64,000 bases of DNA from Brachionus manjavacas (taxonomy: Eukaryota; Rotifera; Eurotatoria; Ploima; Brachionidae), in NCBI GenBank assembly GCA_019054805.1, contig JAHQIY010000011.1:1245001-1309000 (forward strand). Reading direction: 5' to 3'. Position 1 is the stretch's first letter. Each line of letters starts with the position of its first letter. Shown in pieces: positions 11,291 to 58,808 of the stretch. Position numbers and translations under genes: made by a program. The notes under the pieces were generated by a model, which saw only the letters and a list, made by a program, of their open reading frames with translations, was not told the DNA's origin and ran no database searches.

Positions 11291-11299
11291 TTATTAATT

Positions 11300-11705: not shown

Positions 11706-11826
11706 ATTTTATCTGAAAAAATCTGAATAAAATTTCGGCTAAAAATGTTCATTTATTCAATTTATGATAAAAAAATTTTTTTTAAAAAAAAGTACATCAA
11801 TATTTTTCAAAAATCTGCTGAATTAA

Positions 11827-33223: not shown

Positions 33224-33964
33224 ATATATTAAATTAAAAAAAGTAAGTAATTGAAAAAATCGAATTTTCCAGGCAATATTTTGGAAAAAAAATCAAAATT
33301 AACTCTACAAAAACTGTGTTTTTAAATTTGAATTTAAAAACTGATTTTTAAAATGTGCTTAAAAATCATTTTATATTTTAAATCTTTAAAATATGTAAAG
33401 GAAGTCGCATTAAAATTATTTAAATTAATTCAAAGATTAATTTTGATATCTAAAGATAAACTCTATGATTTGCAATGATATTTTGAATTGATCATTAACT
33501 TCAATATGCCAAAAATTACTAAATCTATAAAAAAGGAAAAAAAAATAGTGAAGAACAGTTATGTTTGACAAGTGTCAATAATTTCTCGGCTCTTTATGTT
33601 AATATTTTTTAAATGCTGTTTAATTTTTATTAAAATTAACTTTTTATAAATAAAAAAATTCGATAAATTTTGTTGGGTTCTTATCTTATTTGACTTCAAA
33701 GTGGAAAAAAATAATGAAAATTGTTCGATGGGGATGTAAAATAAAATTGCAAAATTTTATTAAATATTTTAATGAATATTAGTATTAAATTGTTTGCCTT
33801 TGATCTTAAAAAGATTAAAAAGCTAATTATTCTTTCTAAATTTGGTTCATTTATGAGATTTAATTATATTAATGAATCAAACATCTAGAATCTTTTATAA
33901 GTTGTTATTATTATCTTTTAATATTTACTTATTTCTTTAAAAGTCAATATTTTTTTTTGATATT

Positions 33965-35130
33965 TCAGATCACGTATCCCAATAAAGCCTTATAAAATTT
34001 AAGCTTAAGTTTTTTATGTATCGATATAAACCAAGGAGGAATAAAGACACCCGATTTAGAAGAGTCAAATGATACTGCTTCAATTCTAAAATTTGAATCC
34101 TGTACAAAAAATGTATTATTATTAAAAAATAGCTTCGATTTGATCATTGGCATTGCTCATTTTTTATGTTGATTTTCAAATAATTTTTAATTAATTTTCG
34201 AAAATTAAGAAGAGCAACCTTTTGCAATTAAATTAAAAATTGTTTTGACCAAAAAATGTAAAAAGTTAAGTTCGGAATAAAGATGGATCTAAAGGTTTCA
34301 AAGAAAAACTTTAGCTCGTTAAAATTTTCAAAATCTTGTTCTATACAAAATACACAAAATATTAAAAAGGGTGATTAAATTTTTTTGTATTTTTTTTATG
34401 GTATTTTAATAAAATAAAATTAATTAGAATAATTTATATCGTTTATTATAAATAAAATACTATTATTATTGACTTTGTCAGGTATTTTACTAGATTTGAA
34501 AATTAAAAATAAAAAACACATCTTTTACAAAAATGTATTAGAGATGTATTAATAATTAGTTTAAAGTGATTTTTTGATAATATGGATAAAAATATTTGAA
34601 TTTTTTTGACTTTTGAAACTACTTAACAACTTGGTTTGCTTCTAATTTACTTTTTAGGTTTTTCCCTCATAAATGCCTTTACCTCATTTCACAAATTAGA
34701 AAATTTGACCAGATTCATTAATTACATGTTATGCTATTTTTACATAAAATTTAGTAAAATCATTTTTTATTAAAGAAAAAAAGTACATATCTATTTATTA
34801 ACATATTTATTTGAAAATTTAATGACAACACATTAAAGTAAGGACATTTAAATTTTGCCAAGAAACCCATATAATCCATTTGGATTTATGAAGTGTTTCC
34901 TGTCTGCCAATTTCAATCTTTTCTTCACAAAAACAACTTAAGTTTTTCTAATTGTTAAAATTAATGCTGTATCTTTTTTAAAAATTTTGATGAAGATGGT
35001 AAATCATTGACAAAAATGAGAAAAAGTAGTGGACTTTAAACAGATTCTTGCAGAGCTCTATAAAGTTTTATTTTTACCTTTATGAATTCGATTCAATAAT
35101 AAAAATAAAATATAAATCATCAATAAAGAT
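33965..35130 (-). pseudogene. old non-LTR reverse transcriptase remnant inside each 7.5-kb unit
   Basis: On the minus strand at about 34980-35070 the frame reads RALQESV, stop, then SPLLFLIFVNDLPSSSKFLK, clearly the PQGSVLGPLLFLIFINDLP motif of non-LTR reverse transcriptases. Upstream and downstream frames are shredded by stops. A 62-codon frame at 33965-34153 (SSKSGVFIPPWFISIHK) may belong to the same relic. Equivalent relics lie at 42498-42588 and 50020-50110 in copies 2 and 3, with the same mutations, so decay preceded the triplication. Confidence 0.55.
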
Positions 35131-38100
35131 CTCATAAGAATAATCCTAAAAAGCCTTGTAAAATATTTTTTTAATTTATTCATGCTAAATGGTATGAAAA
35201 GATTTTATCGGTGAACATTAAATGGATTAGTTTTGAATTCTTTTGTTGTTAAGTTTGGTTAAAAGCAATTTAATCTGATATCTGTGACGCCCAAATTGAC
35301 AGCTTTATCTATTATTTATTTGAATATCTGCATCGATTTCCATCAGATTTTAACTAAAATAAATATCTAAAAAGTTATTAGTTATTAAATTTTGATAATG
35401 GAAAAGATTTATATGTCAAAGATCAACTAAGACTTTTAGAAAATTTAAAAGCTAAAAAAAATTTACCTAGTCATTTTTTAATTCTTGTTTTTTTAATAAT
35501 TGTGATAATTTTTATATTAGTATAAACTGAATTTTTTTTTAAATAATTTATTTTTTATGGTATTTTATTTTAAATAAAAACAAATAAATGATCGATTTTG
35601 CTGCATAGTTCAAGAAATCTGACCTTTTGTACTCTTCCACTTTGACACCGTTCTCCAGAGCTGAACTGTGCTGGTTTGAAGATAGACGATTAAATAGTGT
35701 TAAATGGAATTCGGTCTAGCTGTGAAGATAAGATCGCGCTAAGATGCTAAACAAGTTTGGACGAAACCTAAAGTAACAAAGATAAGATAAACGATAAAAA
35801 AATTAACAAATAAAAGATAAAATTTTGGCTTTTATATCTGTCAAAATTAAATTTCGACCTGGTCCAAAAAAAATATTTCGAGCTAATTGTTGGCCTCGAA
35901 ATTATCATGTATTTTATTTTAAATAAATGTTCAATACTTGGCCGAAACATGTGTCAGAACCTTTCTAGATCACGTTCCAAATCATCAAATACATTTAAGC
36001 ATTAACCTAGTAATTAATTAGATAACAGGCCATACAATTCCAAATGTAAACTTAAGATTATATTAAGTTTTATTTTATATCTCTTAAAACAGTCTTGAAC
36101 ACCTTTGGACAAGCTCAATAGCTCTAAAAATATACCAAGGTAAATAACCAACATTTTTTTCTGATTGTATTTATTCAATGTTTTTAATCTATAGTTCCAT
36201 TAGCAGTTTTTGAGACAATATTTGTTGGAGTATATTATTTATGTTACTAATGTCCGTATTTTGTTATAAGTGTATGAATTTTAGTTTTTGAAAAATATAA
36301 CTCTTTAAATACTGAAAGGTATCAAGTTTAGAATTAAATCAACATCAGGTAAACCAACAAAATCAAAAATATTGCCATCTACAAGCAACAAAGGTGACTC
36401 AAGATTTTTTATAAATTGTAAACTAAGATTTAATGTAGAAGCAAAAGCAGTGCTTAATCTGCTACAAATGAATAAATTTAGGAGGCTTTTTCAATTTTCA
36501 TATTTGTTAATTTTTAAAAATGACAATTTTATTATTCTTAATTTAAATTTGGAACATATCAGTGCGTAATTTAATTTTTAATAGTTGAATAAGTTTTAAA
36601 TTTAATTTTCAAATTTTTATGAAGAAAAAATTGATCAAATCGATTTAAAAATGAAAAGAAGAAAATATTAATTTTAGAAAAGTGTCCCAAAATGAATAAA
36701 GGGTGGTAGGGTCAGTTCCAAAAAAAAGAGCTAAATTTAAAGTCCTAAATTTTCTCGTGCTTATATATTTTCATAAAAATAAAAAATTTATGCTCTTTAA
36801 GATCATGTGTGATTAATTAGCACTTTAAAAGTGCATGAGAGAAATTTTTTAATAGTTTAGAATACGCTTTTAATTGAATTTTTAAATTATGTTAAAAATA
36901 TAAATATAAATTTTTTGACTTTTGGAGCTAAAATGCGATATATTGTGACGATTTTTTTTAATAACATTTCTTCAAAAAAATTTTTAAATTTTAAACGATC
37001 GATTTTTAAATAGGTTTTAGAAAAAACACCTATTCAAAAGGATCGAAAGCTTATTAAATGCTCCATCTACTCGAAATTCTGTTCTAGTAAAAACATGGTA
37101 GAAAAAAGGCTAATGAAAGTCTATATGAGTTTAATTTTTTTGAATTGTTTATTTTGGATTTTTAATGGCTTTGGGTAATAAAATTTTATCATAATCGATC
37201 AAAATTTAACACAATCTATACTAAAAACTTTATTGAAAAAAACTATAATTGGATAAATGTATGATTCTTAAACAAATAAATAAAGGTAAACTAATTTTTT
37301 ATCTCCAAAAAAATCCTAACATTCAAGTTCAATGCTGATATTTCGTTATAGTTTTCTTTATCTTTTAATTAATACATTTAAAATTCAAATTTTAAAAAAT
37401 CATCAAAAAATTTTTTGAATTAAACCTACATTTAATTTACTCAAAAGTTTTTTGCTTAATGTTTTTTTTAATTTTTGTTAATATACAGAATAATTATGAT
37501 TAATTTTATTATTGAGTTTTTTTTAAGTTAAAGGTTAATCAACAGGTCCAGGTTTTTAAACCCATAAATCTTTTATTTTTTCAAAATTCAATTCGAATTT
37601 AATACAATTTTTAATAATTAAGTATAATTGTTTTAAAAAATGTTTTAATGTCTTAAGATTTCATCATTTTTTAAGAAATTTTTTTATGTAAAAAATTTTT
37701 TTGAGTCACCTTTCATTTAATTACTAAGCAATTAAATTAACAATTGATCTGCCATCTATGTAATGTCTTTTGAAATGATTGATTTTTCGAGTATTTTAGA
37801 AAACTTTTTTTTTATTTTCAGGGTAAATCAACAGTCTTTAAGAATCCATAAACTCTTCTTAACTCAAAAGCATTAAAAAATATGTTCAAATTGTTTTATT
37901 AAAAAAATAAGAAAATAAATTGGTTTGAATGATCATCAAAAATGTATCAATGAAATTGTTAAATTAAAAATTTTTAAATTATCGTACAAAATCAGCGAAA
38001 ATTGAGAGCTGAAATGAAGAAAACTTTTAAACGAAAAAAAATATTCAAAATTTTATTTTTCATTTAGAGATTATTTTTGGTTGTCAAAAACAAAGCTAAA

Positions 38101-38583
38101 TTGCTAAGCCACTGTAAACTTGAGTTAAATTAAAACTGCAACTTTACAAATTAACTGTTGAATGCACACGGATGCATTCGTTTGTGCGGACAAAGTTGTA
38201 GAAGACAAATTTTTAGACGCGGCATCGACCCGTTTGGCCAGCTTTGATACCGTGGGCATAATTTATGCTAAAAAACCATGAGTCCATCTCGAATAGAGAT
38301 AGGGATCTAGAATAAAGCTGAACGCGCATAAATTAGCATAATTCTATGCTTTGATCGCTTCTCTACTTAACATTTTAATAGTTAATAATAATAATTATTA
38401 AAAGAGAAAAAAAGAGAAATTTTTTAGAAGAGTAGTTTGTAATAAAAATTATTTATTTGTTTTTTTCCTCTCTAGATTAAATGATTTAATATTGAGGACT
38501 AGTCAGAGTAGAAGATAACGAGCCCTTGGGCAACAATGTTCCATAATACTTGAACGAATAGTCCTTACTTTTGTCCACTTTAA

Positions 38584-38998
38584 ATGAATCAATCAAACGA
38601 ATCGCAATCAATTAATAACAATTACTTGACTTGTCCAAATTCTAACCATAATTTGCCAAGCATAGCTATAATGTCTAATCCAAACTCGGATGAACAGCCG
38701 CATATTGTGCTACCGGCTACCTCGGCTCCGTCTACACAGCTGAATGACGCAAACAAAGCGTTTGACGATGTTGTCTTTGACATACTCAAAGTTGGCCCGG
38801 ACGAAATTGCTGTAAGCTAACGACACAAATTTATTTGACTGTCTTCTAAATTGTCTTTTACAGGGACAATTGACGCTGATAGATTTGCCTCTATTCAAGG
38901 CTATTGAGCCCGACGAGCTCATATCGTGCAAGTGGATGTCAAGAGAAAAGCTAATCAAGGCCCCCAATATTGTCCAATTTACCAGAAGGTTTAATCAA
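38584..38998 (+). pseudogene. duplicated RalGPS exons 1 and 2, copy 1 (no gene body)
   Basis: Exon 1 (38584-38811) codes for [20 protein letters not shown] to [17 protein letters not shown] and ends at a GTAAGC donor. Exon 2 (38864-38998) codes for [20 protein letters not shown] to FTRRFNQ and ends at GTAAGA. The protein sequence is identical in all three copies, so nothing is broken in the exons themselves. What is missing is a downstream exon 3 before the next unit begins. It could still act as an alternative first exon pair splicing about 18 kb ahead to 57029. Called pseudogene only because it has no body of its own. Confidence 0.6.
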
Positions 38999-39054
38999 GT
39001 AAGATTTTTTTCCTTTTTTGGTCACGTGATCTCGAAGTTGGTTTTTTCGTATTT

Positions 39055-39600
39055 TTTGTCTAAATTTTGGTCGGGGTTTTTGAGAAATAAAAATCATTTA
39101 AATTTTTATCCAAAAAGTAAAAGTTTAATAGAAATTATAACATTGATTTTATTAAAAAAAATTTTTTTATTCTTTTTCTGTCAATTTATCAGTTTTTTTA
39201 TATTGAGTGCAAAGTTTTGGTCGGGGTTTTTGAGAAATAAAAAATCATTTGAATTTTTTTTATCCAAAAAAGTAAAAGTTTTTTAGAAATTATAACATTG
39301 ATTTTATTAAAAAAAATTTTTTTTATTCTTTTTCTGTCAATTTATCAGTTTTTCGTTTTTTTGGCTAAATTTTGGTCGGGGTTTTTGAGAAATAAAAAAT
39401 CATTTGAATTTTTTATCCAAAAAAGTAAAAGTTTTTAGAAATTATAACATTGATTTTATTAAAAAAAATTTTTTTATTCTTTTTCTGTCAATTTATCAGT
39501 TTTTTTATATTGAGTGCAAAGTTTTGGTCGGGGTTTTTGAGAAATAAAAAATCATTTGAATTTTTTTTATCCAAAAAAGTAAAAGTTTTAAAAAAATTAA
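39055..39600. repeat. four-fold 150-bp repeat in RalGPS intron 2
   Basis: GGTCGGGGTTTTTGAGAAAT recurs at 39069, 39219, 39374 and 39526, spacings 150, 155 and 152 bp. Odd and even units differ in their lead-in (TTTTTTGGCTAAATTTT or TATTGAGTGCAAAGTTTT), so the array is a duplicated dimer of about 305 bp. It starts 60 bp after exon 2. The same array is present in copies 2 (about 46570-47115) and 3 (about 54090-54635). Confidence 0.85.
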
Positions 39601-40735
39601 AATATCGATTTAATTAGAAAAGATTTTAAAGAATTAAATGAAAAAAAAAATTTTCCATCTATTAATTAATCTAGGTTAAAATAATTATTCTAATAATCAA
39701 GGATTTTCTCACATAAATCATTTCCATTGACCGATGAAAACAATCGATTAAAAATAAATAAACACTTTTGATAAATAATATTGTTTTGAATTTTTATAAC
39801 GAAAAAATAAGAATCGAAATTAAAAAACACAACTCATGTGGTCATTTTTTTAGGTTCGTGACACTATTATCAAATATTTTGGTCAAAATAGGCCAAGGAC
39901 CTTTAGAGAAAAATTTTTTTGGTGTTTAGTCAAACTTAAATAGCATTTCTTTTGAAAAATTAATTATTAACAAACAATTTTATGATAAGCCCTAATTGTT
40001 CAAACCAAAAATTATTTTAATATTCGTCTTAAAGGTTAAAATGGAAAATAATCAAAATTTCCAATTTTAAGATATTTTCTAAAGATCCAGGCGAGTTCAA
40101 GCCAAAAATATATAAAATATAAAAATCGGACCTTTTTAAAATATATAAGCTAGAATCTTTAATCAGTAATTTACTATAAATGGACATTGCTTTTTCAATT
40201 TTCTAGATTTATTAAATTATTATTTTTAATAAGTCAAAATAAAGATAGCAATTAAAAAAATGTCAATTTGATCATTGTTATCGGGACCTCCAAAAGAATA
40301 AAAACATCCTGTACCTTTTTAAGTTCCCAAAACAAATTTCAGATATTGTTTCGTTTCAAAAGATATTTTTATTTAAAGCTTAAAAAAATGGTTTCTCGAA
40401 ACTTAAGAGCTTTTGATTCTTCTGATTAATAATAAAGAAAATAAAAAAAAAGTAAAAATTAAATTAAATTAGCTAATTTTTATTTGGTCTTAGATAAAAT
40501 TTCTTTGTCATTTTCAATAAATATTCATGCAAAAAATAAATTATTTTAGTTTTTACCAGAGAGATTTTTAGGCCCACCAAGCAAAATAGGTTGTAATATA
40601 AAAAATATTGAAACTCAAACTAATTATGGTTTTAGGTAATGACTTATTTTAAAGAAGGTTTGCTAAATTACAAATAAATTAGATCAAACTTTCACAATTT
40701 TTTTTATGATTAGAAAATTTTTTTTTTTAAATTAA

Positions 40736-43700
40736 ATATATTAAATTAAAAAAAGTAAGTAATTGAAAAAATCGAATTTTCCAGGCAATATTTTGGAAAA
40801 AAATCAAAATTAACTCTACAAAAACTGTGTTTTTAAATTTGAATTTAAAAACTGATTTTTAAAATGTGCTTAAAAATCATTTTATATTTTAAATCTTTAA
40901 AATATGTAAAGGAAGTCGCATTAAAATTATTTAAATTAATTCAAAGATTAATTTTGATATCTAAAGATAAACTCTATGATTTGCAATGATATTTTGAATT
41001 GATCATTAACTTCAATATGCCAAAAATTACTAAATCTATAAAAAAGGAAAAAAAAATAGTGAAGAACAGTTATGTTTGACAAGTGTCAATAATTTCTCGG
41101 CTCTTTATGTTAATATTTTTTAAATGCTGTTTAATTTTTATTAAAATTAACTTTTTATAAATAAAAAAAAATTCGATAAATTTTGTTGGGTTCTTATCTT
41201 ATTTGACTTCAAAGTGGAAAAAAATAATGAAAATTGTTCGATGGGGATGTAAAATAAAATTGCAAAATTTTATTAAATATTTTAATGAATATTAGTATTA
41301 AATTGTTTGCCTTTGATCTTAAAAAAGATTAAAAAGCTAATTATTCTTTCTAAATTTGGTTCATTTATGAGATTTAATTATATTAATGAATCAAACATCT
41401 AGAATCTTTTATAAGTTGTTATTATTATCTTTTAATATTTACTTATTTCTTTAAAAGTCAATATTTTTTTTTTTGATATTTCAGATCACGTATCCCAATA
41501 AAGCCTTATAAAATTTAAGCTTAAGTTTTTTTATGTATCGATATAAACCAAGGAGGAATAAAGACACCCGATTTAGAAGAGTCAAATGATACTGCTTCAA
41601 TTCTAAAATTTGAATCCTGTACAAAAAATGTATTATTATTAAAAAATAGCTTCGATTTGATCATTGGCATTGCTCATTTTTTATGTTGATTTTCAAATAA
41701 TTTTTAATTAATTTTCGAAAATTAAGAAGAGCAACCTTTTGCAATTAAATTAAAAATTGTTTTGACCAAAAAATGTAAAAAGTTAAGTTCGGAATAAAGA
41801 TGGATCTAAAGGTTTCAAAGAAAAACTTTAGCTCGTTAAAATTTTCAAAATCTTGTTCTATACAAAATACACAAAATATTAAAAAGGGTGATTAAATTTT
41901 TTTGTATTTTTTTTATGGTATTTTAATAAAATAAAATTAATTAGAATAATTTATATCGTTTATTATAAATAAAATACTATTATTATTGACTTTGTCAGGT
42001 ATTTTACTAGATTTGAAAATTAAAAATAAAAAACACATCTTTTACAAAAATGTATTAGAGATGTATTAATAATTAGTTTAAAGTGATTTTTTGATAATAT
42101 GGATAAAAATATTTGAATTTTTTTTTGACTTTTGAAACTACTTAACAACTTGGTTTGCTTCTAATTTACTTTTTAGGTTTTTCCCTCATAAATGCCTTTA
42201 CCTCATTTCACAAATTAGAAAATTTGACCAGATTCATTAATTACATGTTATGCTATTTTTACATAAAATTTAGTAAAATCATTTTTTATTAAAGAAAAAA
42301 GTACATATCTATTTATTAACATATTTATTTGAAAATTTAATGACAACACATTAAAGTAAGGACATTTAAATTTTGCCAAGAAACCCATATAATCCATTTG
42401 GATTTATGAAGTGTTTCCTGTCTGCCAATTTCAATCTTTTCTTCACAAAAACAACTTAAGTTTTTCTAATTGTTAAAATTAATGCTGTATCTTTTTTAAA
42501 AATTTTGATGAAGATGGTAAATCATTGACAAAAATGAGAAAAAGTAGTGGACTTTAAACAGATTCTTGCAGAGCTCTATAAAGTTTTATTTTTACCTTTA
42601 TGAATTCGATTCAATAATAAAAATAAAATATAAATCATCAATAAAGATCTCATAAGAATAATCCTAAAAAGCCTTGTAAAATATTTTTTTAATTTATTCA
42701 TGCTAAATGGTATGAAAAGATTTTATCGGTGAACATTAAATGGATTAGTTTTGAATTCTTTTGTTGTTAAGTTTGGTTAAAAGCAATTTAATCTGATATC
42801 TGTGACGCCCAAATTGACAGCTTTATCTATTATTTATTTGAATATCTGCATCGATTTCCATCAGATTTTAACTAAAATAAATATCTAAAAAGTTATTAGT
42901 TATTAAATTTTGATAATGGAAAAGATTTATATGTCAAAGATCAACTAAGACTTTTAGAAAATTTAAAAGCTAAAAAAATTTACCTAGTCATTTTTTAATT
43001 CTTGTTTTTTAATAATTGTGATAATTTTTATATTAGTATAAACTGAATTTTTTAAATAATTTATTTTTTATGGTATTTTATTTTAAATAAAAACAAATAA
43101 ATGATCGATTTTGCTGCATAGTTCAAGAAATCTGACCTTTTGTACTCTTCCACTTTGACACCGTTCTCCAGAGCTGAACTGTGCTGGTTTGAAGATAGAC
43201 GATTAAATAGTGTTAAATGGAATTCGGTCTAGCTGTGAAGATAAGATCGCGCTAAGATGCTAAACAAGTTTGGACGAAACCTAAAGTAACAAAGATAAGA
43301 TAAACGATAAAAAAATTAACAAATAAAAGATAAAATTTTGGCTTTTATATCTGTCAAAATTAAATTTCGACCTGGTCCAAAAAAAATATTTCGAGCTAAT
43401 TGTTGGCCTCGAAATTATCATGTATTTTATTTTAAATAAATGTTCAATACTTGGCCGAAACATGTGTCAGAACCTTTCTAGATCACGTTCCAAATCATCA
43501 AATACATTTAAGCATTAACCTAGTAATTAATTAGATAACAGGCCATACAATTCCAAATGTAAACTTAAGATTATATTAAGTTTTATTTTATATCTCTTAA
43601 AACAGTCTTGAACACCTTTGGACAAGCTCAATAGCTCTAAAAATATACCAAGGTAAATAACCAACATTTTTTTTCTGATTGTATTTATTCAATGTTTTTA

Positions 43701-46700
43701 ATCTATAGTTCCATTAGCAGTTTTTGAGACAATATTTGTTGGAGTATATTATTTATGTTACTAATGTCCGTATTTTGTTATAAGTGTATGAATTTTAGTT
43801 TTTTTGAAAAATATAACTCTTTAAATACTGAAAGGTATCAAGTTTAGAATTAAATCAACATCAGGTAAACCAACAAAATCAAAAATATTGCCATCTACAA
43901 GCAACAAAGGTGACTCAAGATTTTTTATAAATTGTAAACTAAGATTTAATGTAGAAGCAAAAGCAGTGCTTAATCTGCTACAAATGAATAAATTTAGGAG
44001 GCTTTTTCAATTTTCATATTTGTTAATTTTTAAAAATGACAATTTTATTATTCTTAATTTAAATTTGGAACATATCAGTGCGTAATTTAATTTTTAATAG
44101 TTGAATAAGTTTTAAATTTAATTTTCAAATTTTTATGAAGAAAAAATTGATCAAATCGATTTAAAAATGAAAAGAAGAAAATATTAATTTTAGAAAAGTG
44201 TCCCAAAATGAATAAAGGGTGGTAGGGTCAGTTCCAAAAAAAGAGCTAAATTTAAAGTCCTAAATTTTCTCGTGCTTATATATTTTCATAAAAATAAAAA
44301 ATTTATGCTCTTTAAGATCATGTGTGATTAATTAGCACTTTAAAAGTGCATGAGAGAAATTTTTTAATAGTTTAGAATACGCTTTTAATTGAATTTTTAA
44401 ATTATGTTAAAAATATAAATATAAATTTTTTGACTTTTGGAGCTAAAATGCGATATATTGTGACGATTTTTTTTTTAATAACATTTCTTCAAAAAAATTT
44501 TTAAATTTTAAACGATCGATTTTTAAATAGGTTTTAGAAAAAACACCTATTCAAAAGGATCGAAAGCTTATTAAATGCTCCATCTACTCGAAATTCTGTT
44601 CTAGTAAAAACATGGTAGAAAAAAGGCTAATGAAAGTCTATATGAGTTTAATTTTTTTGAATTGTTTATTTTGGATTTTTAATGGCTTTGGGTAATAAAA
44701 TTTTATCATAATCGATCAAAATTTAACACAATCTATACTAAAAACTTTATTGAAAAAAACTATAATTGGATAAATGTATGATTCTTAAACAAATAAATAA
44801 AGGTAAACTAATTTTTTATCTCCAAAAAAAATCCTAACATTCAAGTTCAATGCTGATATTTCGTTATAGTTTTCTTTATCTTTTAATTAATACATTTAAA
44901 ATTCAAATTTTAAAAAATCATCAAAAAATTTTTTGAATTAAACCTACATTTAATTTACTCAAAAGTTTTTTGCTTAATGTTTTTTTTAATTTTTGTTAAT
45001 ATACAGAATAATTATGATTAATTTTATTATTGAGTTTTTTTAAGTTAAAGGTTAATCAACAGGTCCAGGTTTTTAAACCCATAAATCTTTTATTTTTTCA
45101 AAATTCAATTCGAATTTAATACAATTTTTAATAATTAAGTATAATTGTTTTAAAAAATGTTTTAATGTCTTAAGATTTCATCATTTTTTAAGAAATTTTT
45201 TTATGTAAAAAATTTTTTTGAGTCACCTTTCATTTAATTACTAAGCAATTAAATTAACAATTGATCTGCCATCTATGTAATGTCTTTTGAAATGATTGAT
45301 TTTTCGAGTATTTTAGAAAACTTTTTTTTTATTTTCAGGGTAAATCAACAGTCTTTAAGAATCCATAAACTCTTCTTAACTCAAAAGCATTAAAAAATAT
45401 GTTCAAATTGTTTTATTAAAAAAATAAGAAAATAAATTGGTTTGAATGATCATCAAAAATGTATCAATGAAATTGTTAAATTAAAAATTTTTAAATTATC
45501 GTACAAAATCAGCGAAAATTGAGAGCTGAAATGAAGAAAACTTTTAAACGAAAAAAAATATTCAAAATTTTATTTTTCATTTAGAGATTATTTTTGGTTG
45601 TCAAAAACAAAGCTAAATTGCTAAGCCACTGTAAACTTGAGTTAAATTAAAACTGCAACTTTACAAATTAACTGTTGAATGCACACGGATGCATTCGTTT
45701 GTGCGGACAAAGTTGTAGAAGACAAATTTTTAGACGCGGCATCGACCCGTTTGGCCAGCTTTGATACCGTGGGCATAATTTATGCTAAAAAACCATGAGT
45801 CCATCTCGAATAGAGATAGGGATCTAGAATAAAGCTGAACGCGCATAAATTAGCATAATTCTATGCTTTGATCGCTTCTCTACTTAACATTTTAATAGTT
45901 AATAATAATAATTATTAAAAGAGAAAAAAAGAGAAATTTTTTAGAAGAGTAGTTTGTAATAAAAATTATTTATTTGTTTTTTTCCTCTCTAGATTAAATG
46001 ATTTAATATTGAGGACTAGTCAGAGTAGAAGATAACGAGCCCTTGGGCAACAATGTTCCATAATACTTGAACGAATAGTCCTTACTTTTGTCCACTTTAA
46101 ATGAATCAATCAAACGAATCGCAATCAATTAATAACAATTACTTGACTTGTCCAAATTCTAACCATAATTTGCCAAGCATAGCTATAATGTCTAATCCAA
46201 ACTCGGATGAACAGCCGCATATTGTGCTACCGGCTACCTCGGCTCCGTCTACACAGCTGAATGACGCAAACAAAGCGTTTGACGATGTTGTCTTTGACAT
46301 ACTCAAAGTTGGCCCGGACGAAATTGCTGTAAGCTAACGACACAAATTTATTTGACTGTCTTCTAAATTGTCTTTTACAGGGACAATTGACGCTGATAGA
46401 TTTGCCTCTATTCAAGGCTATTGAGCCCGACGAGCTCATATCGTGCAAGTGGATGTCAAGAGAAAAGCTAATCAAGGCCCCCAATATTGTCCAATTTACC
46501 AGAAGGTTTAATCAAGTAAGATTTTTTTCCTTTTTTGGTCACGTGATCTCGAAGTTGGTTTTTTCGTATTTTTTGGCTAAATTTTGGTCGGGGTTTTTGA
46601 GAAATAAAAAATCATTTAAATTTTTTTATCCAAAAAAGTAAAAGTTTAATAGAAATTATAACATTGATTTTATTAAAAAAAATTTTTTTATTCTTTTTCT

Positions 46701-48257
46701 GTCAATTTATCAGTTTTTTTATATTGAGTGCAAAGTTTTGGTCGGGGTTTTTGAGAAATAAAAAATCATTTGAATTTTTTTTATCCAAAAAAGTAAAAGT
46801 TTTTTAGAAATTATAACATTGATTTTATTAAAAAAAAATTTTTTTTATTCTTTTTCTGTCAATTTATCAGTTTTTCGTTTTTTTTGGCTAAATTTTGGTC
46901 GGGGTTTTTGAGAAATAAAAAATCATTTGAATTTTTTATCCAAAAAAGTAAAAGTTTTTTAGAAATTATAACATTGATTTTATTAAAAAAAATTTTTTAT
47001 TCTTTTTCTGTCAATTTATCAGTTTTTTTATATTGAGTGCAAAGTTTTGGTCGGGGTTTTTGAGAAATAAAAAATCATTTGAATTTTTTTTATCCAAAAA
47101 AGTAAAAGTTTTAAAAAAATTAAAATATCGATTTAATTAGAAAAGATTTTAAAGAATTAAATGAAAAAAAAATTTTCCATCTATTAATTAATCTAGGTTA
47201 AAATAATTATTCTAATAATCAAGGATTTTCTCACATAAATCATTTCCATTGACCGATGAAAACAATCGATTAAAAATAAATAAACACTTTTGATAAATAA
47301 TATTGTTTTGAATTTTTATAACGAAAAAATAAGAATCGAAATTAAAAAACACAACTCATGTGGTCATTTTTTTAGGTTCGTGACACTATTATCAAATATT
47401 TTGGTCAAAATAGGCCAAGGACCTTTAGAGAAAAATTTTTTTGGTGTTTAGTCAAACTTAAATAGCATTTCTTTTGAAAAATTAATTATTAACAAACAAT
47501 TTTATGATAAGCCCTAATTGTTCAAACCAAAAATTATTTTAATATTCGTCTTAAAGGTTAAAATGGAAAATAATCAAAATTTCCAATTTTAAGATATTTT
47601 CTAAAGATCCAGGCGAGTTCAAGCCAAAAATATATAAAATATAAAAATCGGACCTTTTTAAAATATATAAGCTAGAATCTTTAATCAGTAATTTACTATA
47701 AATGGACATTGCTTTTTCAATTTTCTAGATTTATTAAATTATTATTTTTAATAAGTCAAAATAAAGATAGCAATTAAAAAAATGTCAATTTGATCATTGT
47801 TATCGGGACCTCCAAAAGAATAAAAACATCCTGTACCTTTTTAAGTTCCCAAAACAAATTTCAGATATTGTTTCGTTTCAAAAGATATTTTTATTTAAAG
47901 CTTAAAAAAATGGTTTCTCGAAACTTAAGAGCTTTTGATTCTTCTGATTAATAATAAAGAAAATAAAAAAAGTAAAAATTAAATTAAATTAGCTAATTTT
48001 TATTTGGTCTTAGATAAAATTTCTTTGTCATTTTCAATAAATATTCATGCAAAAAATAAATTATTTTAGTTTTTACCAGAGAGATTTTTAGGCCCACCAA
48101 GCAAAATAGGTTGTAATATAAAAAAAATATTGAAACTCAAACTAATTATGGTTTTAGGTAATGACTTATTTTAAAGAAGGTTTGCTAAATTACAAATAAA
48201 TTAGATCAAACTTTCACAATTTTTTTTATGATTAGAAAATTTTTTTTTTTAAATTAA
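40736..48257. repeat. 7.5-kb tandem unit, copy 2
   Basis: Middle unit, same content and orientation as copy 1. Its junctions with copies 1 and 3 are identical (run of T, then AAATTAAATATATTAAATT), so all junctions come from one original duplication event that was then amplified. Confidence 0.9.
46101..46515 (+). pseudogene. duplicated RalGPS exons 1 and 2, copy 2 (no gene body)
   Basis: Exon 1 46101-46328 and exon 2 46381-46515, identical in coding sequence to copies 1 and 3, with the same 52-bp intron and the same donor sites. An open question is whether it is transcribed from its own upstream region and spliced about 10.5 kb to exon 3. Confidence 0.6.
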
Positions 48258-51200
48258 ATATATTAAATTAAAAAAAGTAAGTAATTGAAAAAATCGAATT
48301 TTCCAGGCAATATTTTGGAAAAAAAATCAAAATTAACTCTACAAAAACTGTGTTTTTAAATTTGAATTTAAAAACTGATTTTTAAAATGTGCTTAAAAAT
48401 CATTTTATATTTTAAATCTTTAAAATATGTAAAGGAAGTCGCATTAAAATTATTTAAATTAATTCAAAGATTAATTTTGATATCTAAAGATAAACTCTAT
48501 GATTTGCAATGATATTTTGAATTGATCATTAACTTCAATATGCCAAAAATTACTAAATCTATAAAAAAGGAAAAAAAAATAGTGAAGAACAGTTATGTTT
48601 GACAAGTGTCAATAATTTCTCGGCTCTTTATGTTAATATTTTTTAAATGCTGTTTAATTTTTATTAAAATTAACTTTTTATAAATAAAAAAAAATTCGAT
48701 AAATTTTGTTGGGTTCTTATCTTATTTGACTTCAAAGTGGAAAAAAATAATGAAAATTGTTCGATGGGGATGTAAAATAAAATTGCAAAATTTTATTAAA
48801 TATTTTAATGAATATTAGTATTAAATTGTTTGCCTTTGATCTTAAAAAAAGATTAAAAAGCTAATTATTCTTTCTAAATTTGGTTCATTTATGAGATTTA
48901 ATTATATTAATGAATCAAACATCTAGAATCTTTTATAAGTTGTTATTATTATCTTTTAATATTTACTTATTTCTTTAAAAGTCAATATTTTTTTTTTTGA
49001 TATTTCAGATCACGTATCCCAATAAAGCCTTATAAAATTTAAGCTTAAGTTTTTTATGTATCGATATAAACCAAGGAGGAATAAAGACACCCGATTTAGA
49101 AGAGTCAAATGATACTGCTTCAATTCTAAAATTTGAATCCTGTACAAAAAATGTATTATTATTAAAAAATAGCTTCGATTTGATCATTGGCATTGCTCAT
49201 TTTTTATGTTGATTTTCAAATAATTTTTAATTAATTTTCGAAAATTAAGAAGAGCAACCTTTTGCAATTAAATTAAAAATTGTTTTGACCAAAAAATGTA
49301 AAAAGTTAAGTTCGGAATAAAGATGGATCTAAAGGTTTCAAAGAAAAACTTTAGCTCGTTAAAATTTTCAAAATCTTGTTCTATACAAAATACACAAAAT
49401 ATTAAAAAGGGTGATTAAATTTTTTTGTATTTTTTTTATGGTATTTTAATAAAATAAAATTAATTAGAATAATTTATATCGTTTATTATAAATAAAATAC
49501 TATTATTATTGACTTTGTCAGGTATTTTACTAGATTTGAAAATTAAAAATAAAAAACACATCTTTTACAAAAATGTATTAGAGATGTATTAATAATTAGT
49601 TTAAAGTGATTTTTTGATAATATGGATAAAAATATTTGAATTTTTTTGACTTTTGAAACTACTTAACAACTTGGTTTGCTTCTAATTTACTTTTTAGGTT
49701 TTTCCCTCATAAATGCCTTTACCTCATTTCACAAATTAGAAAATTTGACCAGATTCATTAATTACATGTTATGCTATTTTTACATAAAATTTAGTAAAAT
49801 CATTTTTTATTAAAGAAAAAAGTACATATCTATTTATTAACATATTTATTTGAAAATTTAATGACAACACATTAAAGTAAGGACATTTAAATTTTGCCAA
49901 GAAACCCATATAATCCATTTGGATTTATGAAGTGTTTCCTGTCTGCCAATTTCAATCTTTTCTTCACAAAAACAACTTAAGTTTTTCTAATTGTTAAAAT
50001 TAATGCTGTATCTTTTTTAAAAATTTTGATGAAGATGGTAAATCATTGACAAAAATGAGAAAAAGTAGTGGACTTTAAACAGATTCTTGCAGAGCTCTAT
50101 AAAGTTTTATTTTTACCTTTATGAATTCGATTCAATAATAAAAATAAAATATAAATCATCAATAAAGATCTCATAAGAATAATCCTAAAAAGCCTTGTAA
50201 AATATTTTTTTAATTTATTCATGCTAAATGGTATGAAAAGATTTTATCGGTGAACATTAAATGGATTAGTTTTGAATTCTTTTGTTGTTAAGTTTGGTTA
50301 AAAGCAATTTAATCTGATATCTGTGACGCCCAAATTGACAGCTTTATCTATTATTTATTTGAATATCTGCATCGATTTCCATCAGATTTTAACTAAAATA
50401 AATATCTAAAAAGTTATTAGTTATTAAATTTTGATAATGGAAAAGATTTATATGTCAAAGATCAACTAAGACTTTTAGAAAATTTAAAAGCTAAAAAAAT
50501 TTACCTAGTCATTTTTTAATTCTTGTTTTTTAATAATTGTGATAATTTTTATATTAGTATAAACTGAATTTTTTTAAATAATTTATTTTTTATGGTATTT
50601 TATTTTAAATAAAAACAAATAAATGATCGATTTTGCTGCATAGTTCAAGAAATCTGACCTTTTGTACTCTTCCACTTTGACACCGTTCTCCAGAGCTGAA
50701 CTGTGCTGGTTTGAAGATAGACGATTAAATAGTGTTAAATGGAATTCGGTCTAGCTGTGAAGATAAGATCGCGCTAAGATGCTAAACAAGTTTGGACGAA
50801 ACCTAAAGTAACAAAGATAAGATAAACGATAAAAAAATTAACAAATAAAAGATAAAATTTTGGCTTTTATATCTGTCAAAATTAAATTTCGACCTGGTCC
50901 AAAAAATATTTCGAGCTAATTGTTGGCCTCGAAATTATCATGTATTTTATTTTAAATAAATGTTCAATACTTGGCCGAAACATGTGTCAGAACCTTTCTA
51001 GATCACGTTCCAAATCATCAAATACATTTAAGCATTAACCTAGTAATTAATTAGATAACAGGCCATACAATTCCAAATGTAAACTTAAGATTATATTAAG
51101 TTTTATTTTATATCTCTTAAAACAGTCTTGAACACCTTTGGACAAGCTCAATAGCTCTAAAAATATACCAAGGTAAATAACCAACATTTTTTTCTGATTG

Positions 51201-54200
51201 TATTTATTCAATGTTTTTAATCTATAGTTCCATTAGCAGTTTTTGAGACAATATTTGTTGGAGTATATTATTTATGTTACTAATGTCCGTATTTTGTTAT
51301 AAGTGTATGAATTTTAGTTTTTTTGAAAAATATAACTCTTTAAATACTGAAAGGTATCAAGTTTAGAATTAAATCAACATCAGGTAAACCAACAAAATCA
51401 AAAATATTGCCATCTACAAGCAACAAAGGTGACTCAAGATTTTTTATAAATTGTAAACTAAGATTTAATGTAGAAGCAAAAGCAGTGCTTAATCTGCTAC
51501 AAATGAATAAATTTAGGAGGCTTTTTCAATTTTCATATTTGTTAATTTTTAAAAATGACAATTTTATTATTCTTAATTTAAATTTGGAACATATCAGTGC
51601 GTAATTTAATTTTTAATAGTTGAATAAGTTTTAAATTTAATTTTCAAATTTTTATGAAGAAAAAAATTGATCAAATCGATTTAAAAATGAAAAGAAGAAA
51701 ATATTAATTTTAGAAAAGTGTCCCAAAATGAATAAAGGGTGGTAGGGTCAGTTCCAAAAAAAAGAGCTAAATTTAAAGTCCTAAATTTTCTCGTGCTTAT
51801 ATATTTTCATAAAAATAAAAAATTTATGCTCTTTAAGATCATGTGTGATTAATTAGCACTTTAAAAGTGCATGAGAGAAATTTTTTAATAGTTTAGAATA
51901 CGCTTTTAATTGAATTTTTAAATTATGTTAAAAATATAAATATAAATTTTTTGACTTTTGGAGCTAAAATGCGATATATTGTGACGATTTTTTTTTTAAT
52001 AACATTTCTTCAAAAAAAATTTTTAAATTTTAAACGATCGATTTTTAAATAGGTTTTAGAAAAAACACCTATTCAAAAGGATCGAAAGCTTATTAAATGC
52101 TCCATCTACTCGAAATTCTGTTCTAGTAAAAACATGGTAGAAAAAAGGCTAATGAAAGTCTATATGAGTTTAATTTTTTTGAATTGTTTATTTTGGATTT
52201 TTAATGGCTTTGGGTAATAAAATTTTATCATAATCGATCAAAATTTAACACAATCTATACTAAAAACTTTATTGAAAAAAACTATAATTGGATAAATGTA
52301 TGATTCTTAAACAAATAAATAAAGGTAAACTAATTTTTTATCTCCAAAAAAAATCCTAACATTCAAGTTCAATGCTGATATTTCGTTATAGTTTTCTTTA
52401 TCTTTTAATTAATACATTTAAAATTCAAATTTTAAAAAATCATCAAAAAATTTTTTGAATTAAACCTACATTTAATTTACTCAAAAGTTTTTTGCTTAAT
52501 GTTTTTTTAATTTTTGTTAATATACAGAATAATTATGATTAATTTTATTATTGAGTTTTTTTAAGTTAAAGGTTAATCAACAGGTCCAGGTTTTTAAACC
52601 CATAAATCTTTTATTTTTTCAAAATTCAATTCGAATTTAATACAATTTTTAATAATTAAGTATAATTGTTTTAAAAAATGTTTTAATGTCTTAAGATTTC
52701 ATCATTTTTTAAGAAATTTTTTATGTAAAAAATTTTTTTGAGTCACCTTTCATTTAATTACTAAGCAATTAAATTAACAATTGATCTGCCATCTATGTAA
52801 TGTCTTTTGAAATGATTGATTTTTCGAGTATTTTAGAAAACTTTTTTATTTTCAGGGTAAATCAACAGTCTTTAAGAATCCATAAACTCTTCTTAACTCA
52901 AAAGCATTAAAAAATATGTTCAAATTGTTTTATTAAAAAAATAAGAAAATAAATTGGTTTGAATGATCATCAAAAATGTATCAATGAAATTGTTAAATTA
53001 AAAATTTTTAAATTATCGTACAAAATCAGCGAAAATTGAGAGCTGAAATGAAGAAAACTTTTAAACGAAAAAAAATATTCAAAATTTTATTTTTCATTTA
53101 GAGATTATTTTTGGTTGTCAAAAACAAAGCTAAATTGCTAAGCCACTGTAAACTTGAGTTAAATTAAAACTGCAACTTTACAAATTAACTGTTGAATGCA
53201 CACGGATGCATTCGTTTGTGCGGACAAAGTTGTAGAAGACAAATTTTTAGACGCGGCATCGACCCGTTTGGCCAGCTTTGATACCGTGGGCATAATTTAT
53301 GCTAAAAAACCATGAGTCCATCTCGAATAGAGATAGGGATCTAGAATAAAGCTGAACGCGCATAAATTAGCATAATTCTATGCTTTGATCGCTTCTCTAC
53401 TTAACATTTTAATAGTTAATAATAATAATTATTAAAAGAGAAAAAAAGAGAAATTTTTTAGAAGAGTAGTTTGTAATAAAAATTATTTATTTGTTTTTTT
53501 CCTCTCTAGATTAAATGATTTAATATTGAGGACTAGTCAGAGTAGAAGATAACGAGCCCTTGGGCAACAATGTTCCATAATACTTGAACGAATAGTCCTT
53601 ACTTTTGTCCACTTTAAATGAATCAATCAAACGAATCGCAATCAATTAATAACAATTACTTGACTTGTCCAAATTCTAACCATAATTTGCCAAGCATAGC
53701 TATAATGTCTAATCCAAACTCGGATGAACAGCCGCATATTGTGCTACCGGCTACCTCGGCTCCGTCTACACAGCTGAATGACGCAAACAAAGCGTTTGAC
53801 GATGTTGTCTTTGACATACTCAAAGTTGGCCCGGACGAAATTGCTGTAAGCTAACGACACAAATTTATTTGACTGTCTTCTAAATTGTCTTTTACAGGGA
53901 CAATTGACGCTGATAGATTTGCCTCTATTCAAGGCTATTGAGCCCGACGAGCTCATATCGTGCAAGTGGATGTCAAGAGAAAAGCTAATCAAGGCCCCCA
54001 ATATTGTCCAATTTACCAGAAGGTTTAATCAAGTAAGATTTTTTTCCTTTTTTTGGTCACGTGATCTCGAAGTTGGTTTTTTCGTATTTTTTGGCTAAAT
54101 TTTGGTCGGGGTTTTTGAGAAATAAAAAATCATTTAAATTTTTTTATCCAAAAAAGTAAAAGTTTAATAGAAATTATAACATTGATTTTATTAAAAAAAT

Positions 54201-55767
54201 TTTTTTATTCTTTTTCTGTCAATTTATCAGTTTTTTTATATTGAGTGCAAAGTTTTGGTCGGGGTTTTTGAGAAATAAAAAATCATTTGAATTTTTTTTA
54301 TCCAAAAAAGTAAAAGTTTTTTAGAAATTATAACATTGATTTTATTAAAAAAAAATTTTTTTTATTCTTTTTCTGTCAATTTATCAGTTTTTCGTTTTTT
54401 TTGGCTAAATTTTGGTCGGGGTTTTTGAGAAATAAAAAATCATTTGAATTTTTTTTATCCAAAAAAGTAAAAGTTTTTTAGAAATTATAACATTGATTTT
54501 ATTAAAAAAAATTTTTTTATTCTTTTTCTGTCAATTTATCAGTTTTTTTATATTGAGTGCAAAGTTTTGGTCGGGGTTTTTGAGAAATAAAAAATCATTT
54601 GAATTTTTTTTATCCAAAAAAGTAAAAGTTTTAAAAAAATTAAAATATCGATTTAATTAGAAAAGATTTTAAAGAATTAAATGAAAAAAAATTTTTCCAT
54701 CTATTAATTAATCTAGGTTAAAATAATTATTCTAATAATCAAGGATTTTCTCACATAAATCATTTCCATTGACCGATGAAAACAATCGATTAAAAATAAA
54801 TAAACACTTTTGATAAATAATATTGTTTTGAATTTTTATAACGAAAAAATAAGAATCGAAATTAAAAAACACAACTCATGTGGTCATTTTTTTAGGTTCG
54901 TGACACTATTATCAAATATTTTGGTCAAAATAGGCCAAGGACCTTTAGAGAAAAATTTTTTTGGTGTTTAGTCAAACTTAAATAGCATTTCTTTTGAAAA
55001 ATTAATTATTAACAAACAATTTTATGATAAGCCCTAATTGTTCAAACCAAAAATTATTTTAATATTCGTCTTAAAGGTTAAAATGGAAAATAATCAAAAT
55101 TTCCAATTTTAAGATATTTTCTAAAGATCCAGGCGAGTTCAAGCCAAAAATATATAAAATATAAAAATCGGACCTTTTTAAAATATATAAGCTAGAATCT
55201 TTAATCAGTAATTTACTATAAATGGACATTGCTTTTTCAATTTTCTAGATTTATTAAATTATTATTTTTAATAAGTCAAAATAAAGATAGCAATTAAAAA
55301 AATGTCAATTTGATCATTGTTATCGGGACCTCCAAAAGAATAAAAACATCCTGTACCTTTTAAGTTCCCAAAACAAATTTCAGATATTGTTTCGTTTCAA
55401 AAGATATTTTTATTTAAAGCTTAAAAAATGGTTTCTCGAAACTTAAGAGCTTTTGATTCTTCTGATTAATAATAAAGAAAATAAAAAAGTAAAAATTAAA
55501 TTAAATTAGCTAATTTTTATTTGGTCTTAGATAAAATTTCTTTGTCATTTTCAATAAATATTCATGCAAAAAATAAATTATTTTAGTTTTTACCAGAGAG
55601 ATTTTTAGGCCCACCAAGCAAAATAGGTTGTAATATAAAAAAAATATTGAAACTCAAACTAATTATGGTTTTAGGTAATGACTTATTTTAAAGAAGGTTT
55701 GCTAAATTACAAATAAATTAGATCAAACTTTCACAATTTTTTTTATGATTAGAAAATTTTTTTTAAA
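48258..55767. repeat. 7.5-kb tandem unit, copy 3
   Basis: Last unit. It leads out into unique DNA (AATGCTTACTGAAATATT) after 55767 and then to the single downstream exon of the RalGPS gene. It is therefore the copy whose exons are nearest to a complete gene. Confidence 0.9.
53490..53617 (+). promoter_or_regulatory. leader of RalGPS exon 1 with a possible splice or trans-splice acceptor
   Basis: TTTGTTTTTTTCCTCTCTAG at 53490-53509 is a strong pyrimidine-tract acceptor 108 bp before the ATG. It could receive a 5' UTR exon or a spliced leader (spliced-leader trans-splicing is known in rotifers). Identical sites sit at 38456-38475 and 45973-45992. No TATA-type promoter could be singled out in such AT-rich DNA. 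Confidence 0.35.
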
Positions 55768-58732
55768 AATGCTTACTGAAATATTTTGAAATTTAAATTA
55801 ATCATGAAAATTGATGAAAGTTTGGCACGAATTTTGGTATTAAAGATTAAAAAATACTATGACCTGTTTTAAATATAATTAAAGTAAATGCTGAAGTTTA
55901 TTTAATCTTAAAAAAGCTTATTAAATTAAAGGAATTTTTTAAAAGTAATAATTGAAAAAAAGCAAAAATAATAAAAAATATTTTTTTATCCTTTTTTAAT
56001 TTATTTGTATCTATCATTAAAAAAGACACATTTTGATGAAGAACATTTTTCTTCCTTTTCATTAGGTCTTTGCATTTTTGAATAAATATTAAAATATTGG
56101 TTCCAGTAATTTAAAGAGTAAAGCTTTAGTTAAAAAATTTCAAAAATAGAGATTTTAAATAGTTTTAAATATTAAATAATTTTTTTTTAAATATTAAATT
56201 ATTTTTTTTAAATCCCAGATCCTTTATCAAAAAAAAAATTATTTTTCTTTTCAATAAAAAAGAGCACATTCTGGTGACAGAAAGAAAAAAATAATTTTTT
56301 TTTTAAATATTAAATTATTTTTCTAAAACCCCAGATCCTTTATCAAAAAAAAAAATTAAAGAATGATTTTTAAAATAAGCTAAATATAAACAAAATTTTA
56401 AGATTAAGATTAAATAATTTAAATTTTTTTTTTAAATATTTAAATATTTAATTTTTTTGAAAAAAATAATTTTCTTTTTAAATATTAAAATAATTTTTCT
56501 AAAACCCCAGATTCTTTATCAAAAAAAAAATTAAAGAATGATTTTTAAAATAAGCTAAATATAAACAAAATTTTAAGATTAAGATTAAATAATTAAAATT
56601 TTTTTTTTTAAATATTTAAATATTTAATTTTTTTGAAAAAAATAATTTCCTTTTAAATATTAAAATAATTTTTCTAAAACCCCAGATCCTTTATCAAAAA
56701 AAAAAATTAAAGAATGATTTTTAAAATAAGCTAAATATAAACAAAATTTTAAGATTAAGATTAAATAATTAAAAATTTTTTTTTTAAATATTTAAATATT
56801 TAATTTTTTTGAAAAAAATAATTTTCTTTTTAAATATTAAAATTATTTTTCTAAAACCCCAGATCCTTTATCAAAAAAAATATAATTATTTTTCTTTTCC
56901 ATAAAAAAGACCACATTCTGGTGCCAAAAAGAAAAAAATAATTTTTTCAAATATTGAAATTGTCTTTTAAAACCCCAGAGAAATTTTTCTTAAAAAAAAA
57001 AATAATTTTTTTTCTTTTCCATAAAAAGACCACATTCTGGTGCCAAAAAGAAATTCTGAACTGCAAACGGATCGAAAAGCGGGCCAAAATGCTCACTCAC
57101 TTTGTCAAAATCTGCAAGCGGCTCAACGAGCTGCACTCGTTCAACTCGCTAATGGCGATAATAGTGGCGCTCAAGTCGGCGTCCATCTACCGGCTGAAAA
57201 AGACCTGGTCGCACATTTCCAAGCGCGACCAGGCCACGTTCGATCGGCTCGCCGACCTCATGTTCGACACCAGCGACAACAAGCGCAAGATGCGCGACAT
57301 GCACATGAACTGCAAGCTGCCGTGCATCCCCTTCCTGGGCCTCTTTCTCACCGACCTCATCCACATCGACATCGCCCATCCGCACAACTCGTTCGACAAC
57401 CCGCAGCGCCGCAACCAAATGAACAACATTTGCCGCCTCGTCAGCGAGTACCAGCAGTCCAACTACCAGGATCTGACCTCGCTCACATGCCTGTGCGAGC
57501 TGGACGCGGCCAACGCGGACGCCTGCCTCACGGCCAACTGCCAGTGCGGCCTGCATCACGGCAAGGCGTGCGCCGGCGGCCTCATCAACTCCGACGGCAC
57601 CATCTACATCAACGACATCACCTACGTCCAAAACTATCTCAACTCCTTTTTGTACATAGAAGAGCTGCAGAAGTTCAAGGAGGACGAGAACTACCGGGAC
57701 TCGCTGGACCTGGAGCCCGACGCCGCCACCGACTTGTCCTCGGCCAGCGCCGACAAAACCAGCCCGCTGTCCACCGCGTCGCCCTCCAAGCACCCGCTCG
57801 AGCCCAAACCGGTGATCAATGTAAATAAGCTCGTGAACCCGCTGGACGACAGCCTGCTCGCTCAGCAAAACGACACCCTGGTCCTTGACCTCAACGACTT
57901 GTCCAAAGAGGAGCAGAGAAAAATACTCAACAACGTGAAGCTGACCGAGCCGCCGACCAACCTGCTCAAAGAGCTGCTCAAGCAGCGGCACCAGTCGAGC
58001 GTGAGCTCCAAGCCGAGTCTGCGCCACAAGTTCAGCTGCTACTCGAGCTCGACGGCCGATCTGGACGCGGACGAGTGCGACGACGAGTCCTGCGAGCCCA
58101 GCTTCGACGAGTCGTCGTGCGCCCACGAGCTCACGCCGGTCAAGAGCAGTGAGCGCGCCGGCCGCAACTTGTCGTCGGCGCTGGGCCTCGACCAGGTCGA
58201 CGCCGCCGCCCTCCACTGCCCCGCCGCCCAAATAGTCCTCTTCGAGTCGCCCATCAAACGAAAGTGCATCATCAAGCACTTCCGCAAGCCCAAGTTTAGT
58301 CAATGGAAGTCGTACTGGCTGCAGCTGGTCGCCGGCAACTTGTTGATCTACTATCCGGCCAAGAGCAGCTTGATGTTCAGCAAGGAGGCGAGGCGGACCA
58401 GTGTGGTGGACGGCGACGCCGAACTACTCAAAAATCAGCTCCAAACCCGCAAGATGTTCTACCAGAAAAATCCGTGCAAAATGCACCCCATTGCCAACTG
58501 GATGGTGGTCGATTTGTGCCCCGACACCGCCACCGACACCAGCGACGACCACCACCACCACCACAACCAGGTGCTCAAGTACGACATTCAGCTCAACGAC
58601 TTGAACAACGGCAACATGTACAAGTACAGACTGGAGAGTGGCCATTTGGCTAAAGAGTGGCTCGAGCAGTTCAAAGTGGCCAGCACTTACCACGAAAGAC
58701 AAAAGCCTGATAATCTAATTCGCTTCGACTAG
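53618..58732 (+). CDS. RALGPS: RalGPS-type RasGEF with PH domain
   Basis: Three exons join in phase 0: 53618-53845, 53898-54032 and 57029-58732, 688 aa. RalGPS proteins activate the GTPase RalA through a CDC25-type domain and reach membranes through a C-terminal PH domain. Domains: a Ser/Asn-rich head (1-55); RasGEF from [11 protein letters not shown] (60-70) through [93 protein letters not shown] and [20 protein letters not shown] (to about 346); a long linker; PH at about 526-674 ([48 protein letters not shown]). An insert of about 45 residues with eight Cys ([20 protein letters not shown]) interrupts the RasGEF domain before its last helices. Exon 3 is GC-rich and unspliced, unlike exons 1-2. 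The start in exon 1 is the first ATG; the 5' end exists three times. Confidence 0.9.
56200..57028. repeat. tandem repeats before RalGPS exon 3, including copies of its splice edge
   Basis: CCCCAGAT-type markers occur at 56214, 56329, 56505, 56680, 56857 and 56973. The middle three steps are 175-177 bp and the outer two about 115 bp. The outer units end with GACCACATTCTGGTGCCAAA or close variants (56265 and 56910), the same sequence that begins the true exon 3 at 57029. The array is therefore built partly from the exon's own acceptor region. Confidence 0.8.

Positions 58733-58759: not shown

Positions 58760-58808
<49 letters not shown>

Follow-up and report, generated by a model that had tools for sequence, protein, structure and literature searches.

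A RalGPS gene with a 5′ end that is present three times in tandem, ahead of a single gene body, lies in a 64,000-nucleotide stretch of a genome assembly of the rotifer Brachionus manjavacas (GCA_019054805.1, contig JAHQIY010000011.1, positions 1245001-1309000, forward strand), hereafter the window. Published sgRNA targets for B. manjavacas mlh3 and vasa (PMC10395877) were each found once in the assembly, without mismatch (up to 1 allowed), as expected for this species or one very close to it. The window was compared with itself, and genome searches were run against the whole assembly (114,169,980 bases in 61 contigs), in which the best candidates were scored. The self-comparison revealed three direct head-to-tail units, with lengths of 7511, 7522 and 7515 bases (units A, B and C; Table 1). 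A three-way alignment of the units gave the same picture and confirmed what a preliminary description of this stretch had proposed, namely three 7.5-kb tandem units before one gene body. The description had also placed the start of the unit correctly at 33224, as left flank and unit differ for the last time at base 33223. Chance cannot account for such a match over 7.5 kb. Among the best candidates scored, near-identical matches to three stretches of the units (33300-34300, 35000-39000 and 55200-55764) were confined to the array itself, which lies within one contig.

Each unit carries 5.36 kb of upstream DNA followed by exons 1 and 2 of the gene. Exon 1, the 52-nt intron after it and exon 2 are each present letter for letter three times, and the claim that the coding sequence of the two exons is the same in all units was therefore borne out in 3/3. 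Exons 1, 2 and 3 join in frame into an open protein of 688 amino acids. Residues 1-121 are encoded by exons 1 and 2 and include about the first 48 residues of the RasGEF domain; thus, exon 3 alone does not encode the whole domain. This domain has a Pfam score of 177.4 bits (residues 74-249). Of all solved structures, RalGPS1 matches the protein best (PDB 3qxl, E 1.1e-73), against E 1.8e-32 for the runner-up (2ije). Residues 526-568, to which the pleckstrin homology (PH) match is limited, match the RALGPS1A structure 2dtc (E 4e-8), and the Pfam PH score was 17.9 bits, under its cut-off of 25.1. A RasGEF domain closest to that of RalGPS1 and a C-terminal PH domain of the RalGPS type are thus both present, and the identity given in the preliminary description is supported.

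Exon 3, with most of the RasGEF domain and the PH domain, is present once, as had been described, and nothing else in the genome matches it closely. A second RalGPS gene was considered and rejected: the two other matches to exon 3 are weak, with 32% identity each (E 2.1e-10 with 2 internal stops, and E 9.7e-4). The locus still encodes one RalGPS protein. No literature holding both the terms RalGPS and rotifer was found. The distance from the start codon to exon 3 is 3.4 kb for copy C, 10.9 kb for copy B and 18.4 kb for copy A, and not 4.7, 12.2 and 19.7 kb as given before; from the exon-2 donor to the exon-3 acceptor it is 3.0, 10.5 and 18.0 kb, respectively. A CT microsatellite of 21 units (58763-58805) begins about 30 bases past the RalGPS stop codon.

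Table 1. Features of the RalGPS locus (positions in the window)
Feature	Position	Strand	Remarks
Dispersed element	33100-33517		~410 bp, ~35-bp inverted ends; extent inferred from match ends
Unit A	33217-40727	+	self-comparison; unit proper from 33224; 33217-33222 have the same letters in flank and junction
Putative acceptor-like site TTTTTTTCCTCTCTAG	38460-38475	+	108 nt before the start codon; the other two copies end at 45992 and 53509
RalGPS exon 1 coding part, copy A	38584-38811	+	228 nt, 76 codons, phase 0
RalGPS exon 2, copy A	38864-38998	+	135 nt, 45 codons, phase 0-0; start of RasGEF domain
155-bp tandem repeat	39065-39627	+	3.7 copies, shortly after exon 2; also 46582-47150 and 54100-54670
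A/B junction	40698-40757	+	T run, filler TAAATTAA, then ATATATT
Unit B	40728-48249	+	self-comparison, three-way alignment
RalGPS exon 1, copy B	46101-46328	+	letter-identical to copy A
RalGPS exon 2, copy B	46381-46515	+	letter-identical to copy A
B/C junction	48220-48279	+	same 60 bases as A/B junction
Unit C	48250-55764	+	self-comparison, three-way alignment; closest unit to the gene body
RalGPS exon 1, copy C	53618-53845	+	letter-identical to copy A
RalGPS exon 2, copy C	53898-54032	+	letter-identical to copy A
Tandem repeats in intron 2 (units of 176 and 120 bp)	56284-57053	+	extend into exon 3
Decoy copy of the exon-3 5′ end	56910-56935	+	near-perfect, behind a copied acceptor; reads into a stop
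RalGPS exon 3, single, shared	57029-58732	+	remainder of the RasGEF domain, PH domain and stop codon

The units are almost the same throughout. Megablast comparisons of unit pairs gave identities of 99.35% and 99.57%, and the three-way alignment contained 40 difference blocks; they begin with the left edge of the array, and nearly all concern homopolymer length. After homopolymer compression, units B and C were identical (4408 letters), and unit A had a single extra letter, which stems from a GG to GT substitution at 39060. This position falls within intron 2, sets A apart from B and C (at the RNA level only before splicing), and is the sole substitution among the units; homopolymer differences with at least one substitution at this site had been noted in the preliminary description, correctly. 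When the substitution and the outer end of unit C are included, 40 of the 4408 common runs vary in length. The variable share rises with run length, from 10/53 at a length of 6 to 12/31 at 7, 8/15 at 8 and 4/5 at 9, and includes all runs of 10 or more (3/3). Among the variable runs, the odd copy out is A in 17 cases, C in 13 and B in 6, and all three copies are unlike in the other 4. These comparisons support the earlier judgment that the event is very recent, or else a product of the assembly.

The two joins between units tell more about the origin of the array. The left flank reads TAAATTC ahead of ATATATT, and the internal junctions have a T run and TAAATTAA in its place; TAAATT and the T run are common to flank and junction. 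Stretches of 120 bases around the two breakpoints share no exact match longer than 11 bases, and this A/T match lies away from the join. Recombination between flanking repeats is therefore not supported as the origin, and overlap between the flanks would likewise be a poor way to invent the junction. The filler 8-mer has one further copy within the unit (33230, 6 bases from the unit start) and another past the right breakpoint (55794, 30 bases away), and its local density is 50 per 32 kb on both strands. This is weakly consistent with end joining that left a short templated insertion.

At its left breakpoint (33223), the array begins within the dispersed inverted-end element of Table 1, for which at least 92 matches at E up to 1e-3 were obtained from the best 40 of 402 candidates, those of the array included. 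Among the aligned relatives of this element, L004 and, less clearly, L007 carry AATTC near the left breakpoint, and the others are unaligned there. The flank thus seems to show the ancestral state, and the bases at the junction seem to be filler. Two of the four inspected places with the element (L004 and L006) are long palindromes. A breakpoint at the exact center of a palindromic element was suggested by L004, but not by L006, and is not claimed here. At the other end of the array, 35 matches outside the array were found to the right-end query, and none of them crosses the right breakpoint (34 lie within query positions 1-363 and one at 742-786).

We favor a real, very recent tandem triplication with one RalGPS body, in which copy C would be the main source of normal mRNA, and give this reading a probability of about 0.6. 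The process would have comprised two steps. In the first, a single end-joining event would have linked a T run of RalGPS intron 2 with a site in the dispersed element. This upstream site lies 5.4 kb before the start codon, and 7.5 kb would thereby have been duplicated. In the second, unequal exchange between the two copies would have formed the third. One joining event followed by a later exchange is proposed because both junctions are alike. That the sequenced DNA holds a real tandem duplication at all is probable; that there are exactly three copies is less likely than that.

The leading alternative is a false duplication, in which a single 7.5-kb stretch would have entered the assembly three times, through incomplete collapse of error-rich long reads or the use of a chimeric read. 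Homotype false duplications that arise from sequence errors in reads have been described (PMC9516828), and copies that are unlike almost only in homopolymer length are what they would leave. Several points have to be counted against a real triplication. Divergence in homopolymers only, save for one base, is also a mark of read error, and among runs of 7 or more, 27/54 are variable among the units, a pattern expected from such errors. The array looks worse polished than unique sequence. In a 200-kb control stretch on C1, coding-like open reading frames (ORFs) of at least 250 amino acids contained 56 runs of 7 or more versus 6 candidate frameshift overlaps, 3 of which carry a run of 6 or more; single-copy coding sequence there looks cleaner, in a comparison with a bias in favor of intact ORFs. 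The filler consists of a few bases, all of them A or T, and from its local density the chance that the same 8-mer lies no more than 10 bases from one or the other breakpoint is estimated at about 6%. Duplications of this kind, reported from Caenorhabditis elegans helq-1 mutants, are described as rare in wild-type worms (PMC8654963). Finally, the control is a single 200-kb stretch, and the actual number of copies may be 2, or may exceed 3.

Poor polishing would be expected in either case, whether the copies are real or false. An assembly error is opposed by the junction: the same 60 bases with filler occur twice, and not at a homology of the flanks. The window contains no N, so that no gap separates the copies, and the substitution at 39060 distinguishes one of them. 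The published cases, as far as that source describes them, had gaps or discordant reads between copies (PMC9516828). The control on C1 contained no near-identical tandem pair with a kilobase-sized unit, and that stretch of the assembly is thus not full of such arrays. Of its near-identical tandem pairs, only one has a unit longer than 123 bp, namely an identical 172-bp pair, 359 bases apart; the longest other direct pairs are 533 bp (94%) at 5.6 kb apart and 256 bp (98%) at 8.2 kb, and short-unit arrays of 123, 39 and about 61 bp are present. The RalGPS locus also contains tandem repeats with units of 155, 176 and 120 bp. It is the junction common to both joins, with its filler, that tips the balance towards a real array, and we regard a false duplication as unlikely.

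A second alternative overlaps partly with the favored triplication: the junction is real, and the assembled state is not that of the germline but of one haplotype, of part of a clonal culture, or of an extrachromosomal circle of the unit merged with the chromosome, with a copy number other than three. Identical head-to-tail junctions are also expected from a circle, and the assembled copy number is fragile since the units are nearly identical. On the other hand, units A and C join unique flanks in one contig, and nothing points to a circle, though the sequence allowed no test for one. We consider such a state rather improbable.

If the triplication is real, the outcome for the gene depends on how its copies are spliced. 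Upstream of each start codon lies an acceptor-like site, TTTTTTTCCTCTCTAG, which is the only such site in 37000-39100 by the pattern used, and the 108 bases that follow it recur in all three units. It had been called a leader acceptor in the preliminary description, and neither a leader search nor a published study of expressed sequence tags (ESTs) supports a role in spliced-leader addition. The bdelloid spliced leader, the one leader searched for, had 0 matches in the genome with up to 2 mismatches allowed. In ESTs of Brachionus plicatilis, no conserved trans-spliced leader was reported, whereas bdelloids have one, and a minor subset of transcripts was not excluded by that study (PMC1925144). 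Rotifers in general are named among the trans-splicing lineages elsewhere (PMC12460157), which weighs the other way. The putative acceptor, if used, would most simply be an ordinary one, with a non-coding exon upstream. GC-richer patches at about 35617 and 38167 were examined as candidates for this exon, and a single donor-like site was found by pattern between 33223 and 38476, at 33242. No structured RNA was found in 33000-59000 by Rfam matches up to E 1.

Copy C alone is predicted to reach exon 3 without passing the splice acceptors of another unit. If exon 2 of A or B is spliced to the putative acceptor in the 5′ untranslated region of the next unit, a stop is computed two codons on, after 123 residues. 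If it is spliced to the next exon 2, the 45-amino-acid exon is repeated in frame, and the product is open at 733 amino acids with one repeat and at 778 with two. From A or B, a normal protein would form only by skipping all intervening acceptors. Because transcripts of these copies would meet a stop or an exon-2 repeat in the next unit, copy C, with its 3-kb intron, is likely the source of normal mRNA and would supply most of it. Copies A and B probably lie idle, lead to waste or give rise to rare isoforms. The three equivalent promoters suggested earlier are thus possible as promoters, but not as equivalents, since only C has a clear path to exon 3.

A nascent 5′-cassette locus, with three live promoters, exon-2 multimers of 733 and 778 amino acids as new isoforms, and a copy number that may still be changing in clones, would be a long shot. 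Also improbable is a functional reading of the same real array as a working set of cassettes, in which each unit would have its own promoter and splice exon 2 to exon 3, as in clustered protocadherins or sDscam, for a gain in dosage or timing: every unit does have 5.36 kb of upstream DNA with exons 1 and 2, and arrangements of this type can give transcripts from multiple copies that are joined to a shared exon (PMC3527215, PMC4835542), but cassettes with identical exons do not by themselves diversify isoforms, transcripts of A and B meet the downstream acceptors, which give a stop or a repeated exon, the promoters are merely putative, and for so recent an event no selection has to be invoked.

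Other sequences in intron 2 resemble the start of exon 3. The exon-3 acceptor and the first bases after it are copied twice, in or beside the 120/176-bp repeat array (56263-57053), a region that also holds five copies of AAACCCCAGA. Besides the near-perfect decoy at 56910, a worn second one lies at 56263 and likewise reads into a stop. Splicing to these decoys would lead to a stop after 136 residues (56910) or 125 residues (56263).

Elsewhere in the window, ORFs with DDE_1 and CENP-B_N domains lie at 60633-61082 and 62141-62527 (minus strand), which we take to be a pogo/Tigger-like transposon. A SWIM zinc finger ORF at 21134-21589 (plus strand) is, judged by eye, probably a transposase remnant, and the ORF that precedes it (20533-21051) had no Pfam match. 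The ORFs at 21941-22790 (plus strand) and 10459-11708 (minus strand) resemble reverse-transcriptase fragments by eye. On the minus strand, a strictosidine-synthase-like ORF lies at 3357-3821, with similar-looking ORFs (by eye) at 269-1254, and a receptor of the rhodopsin family at 6230-7498 is open from stop to stop over 422 amino acids. In the control, about 50 copies of a 123-bp unit, with a length divisible by 3 and about 95-98% alike, form L021-L022 (C1:3068095-3074214).

With a real array, one could test directly if identical 5′ copies serve as additional promoters or if splicing from one into another silences them. The animal can be grown as clones. Its genome can be edited (PMC10395877). 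A false array would be a clean example of a genome assembly that suggests extra promoters.

Among the described systems that were found, the nearest layout is that of PEP1 in Arabis alpina, in which two tandem 5′ copies are spliced to one shared body, as proven by RNA (PMC3527215). Tandem upstream DNA and 5′ exons with a single downstream exon are likewise found in the rotifer assembly. The two differ in that PEP1 has two copies of one exon, and the RalGPS array three copies of two exons; the PEP1 copies have highly divergent upstream sequences, and their RNA was shown, whereas the RalGPS units are identical and known from DNA alone. As to the copies themselves, homotype false duplications are also near-identical with errors of the read type (PMC9516828), but the RalGPS array has no gap and has the same filler-bearing junction twice. 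The tandem duplications of C. elegans helq-1 mutants, about 100 bp to 10 kb long with end-joining junctions (PMC8654963), resemble it in size range and in end-joining marks, whereas the array has three copies and a filler too short to prove the pathway. The sDscam genes of chelicerates, which have been likened to the clustered protocadherins of vertebrates, also have tandem 5′ cassettes, of two or four exons, before constant exons, and exons of different cassettes can be spliced together, which changes the repeat number (PMC4835542). The sDscam cassettes differ in sequence and thus yield isoform diversity; in the very recent RalGPS array, the coding parts of exons 1 and 2 are identical in 3/3 cassettes, unlike in such isoform clusters. 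New here is a rotifer example, with three two-exon units of identical coding sequence. If real, it would represent a first step towards cassette loci like those of sDscam and the clustered protocadherins, before any divergence.

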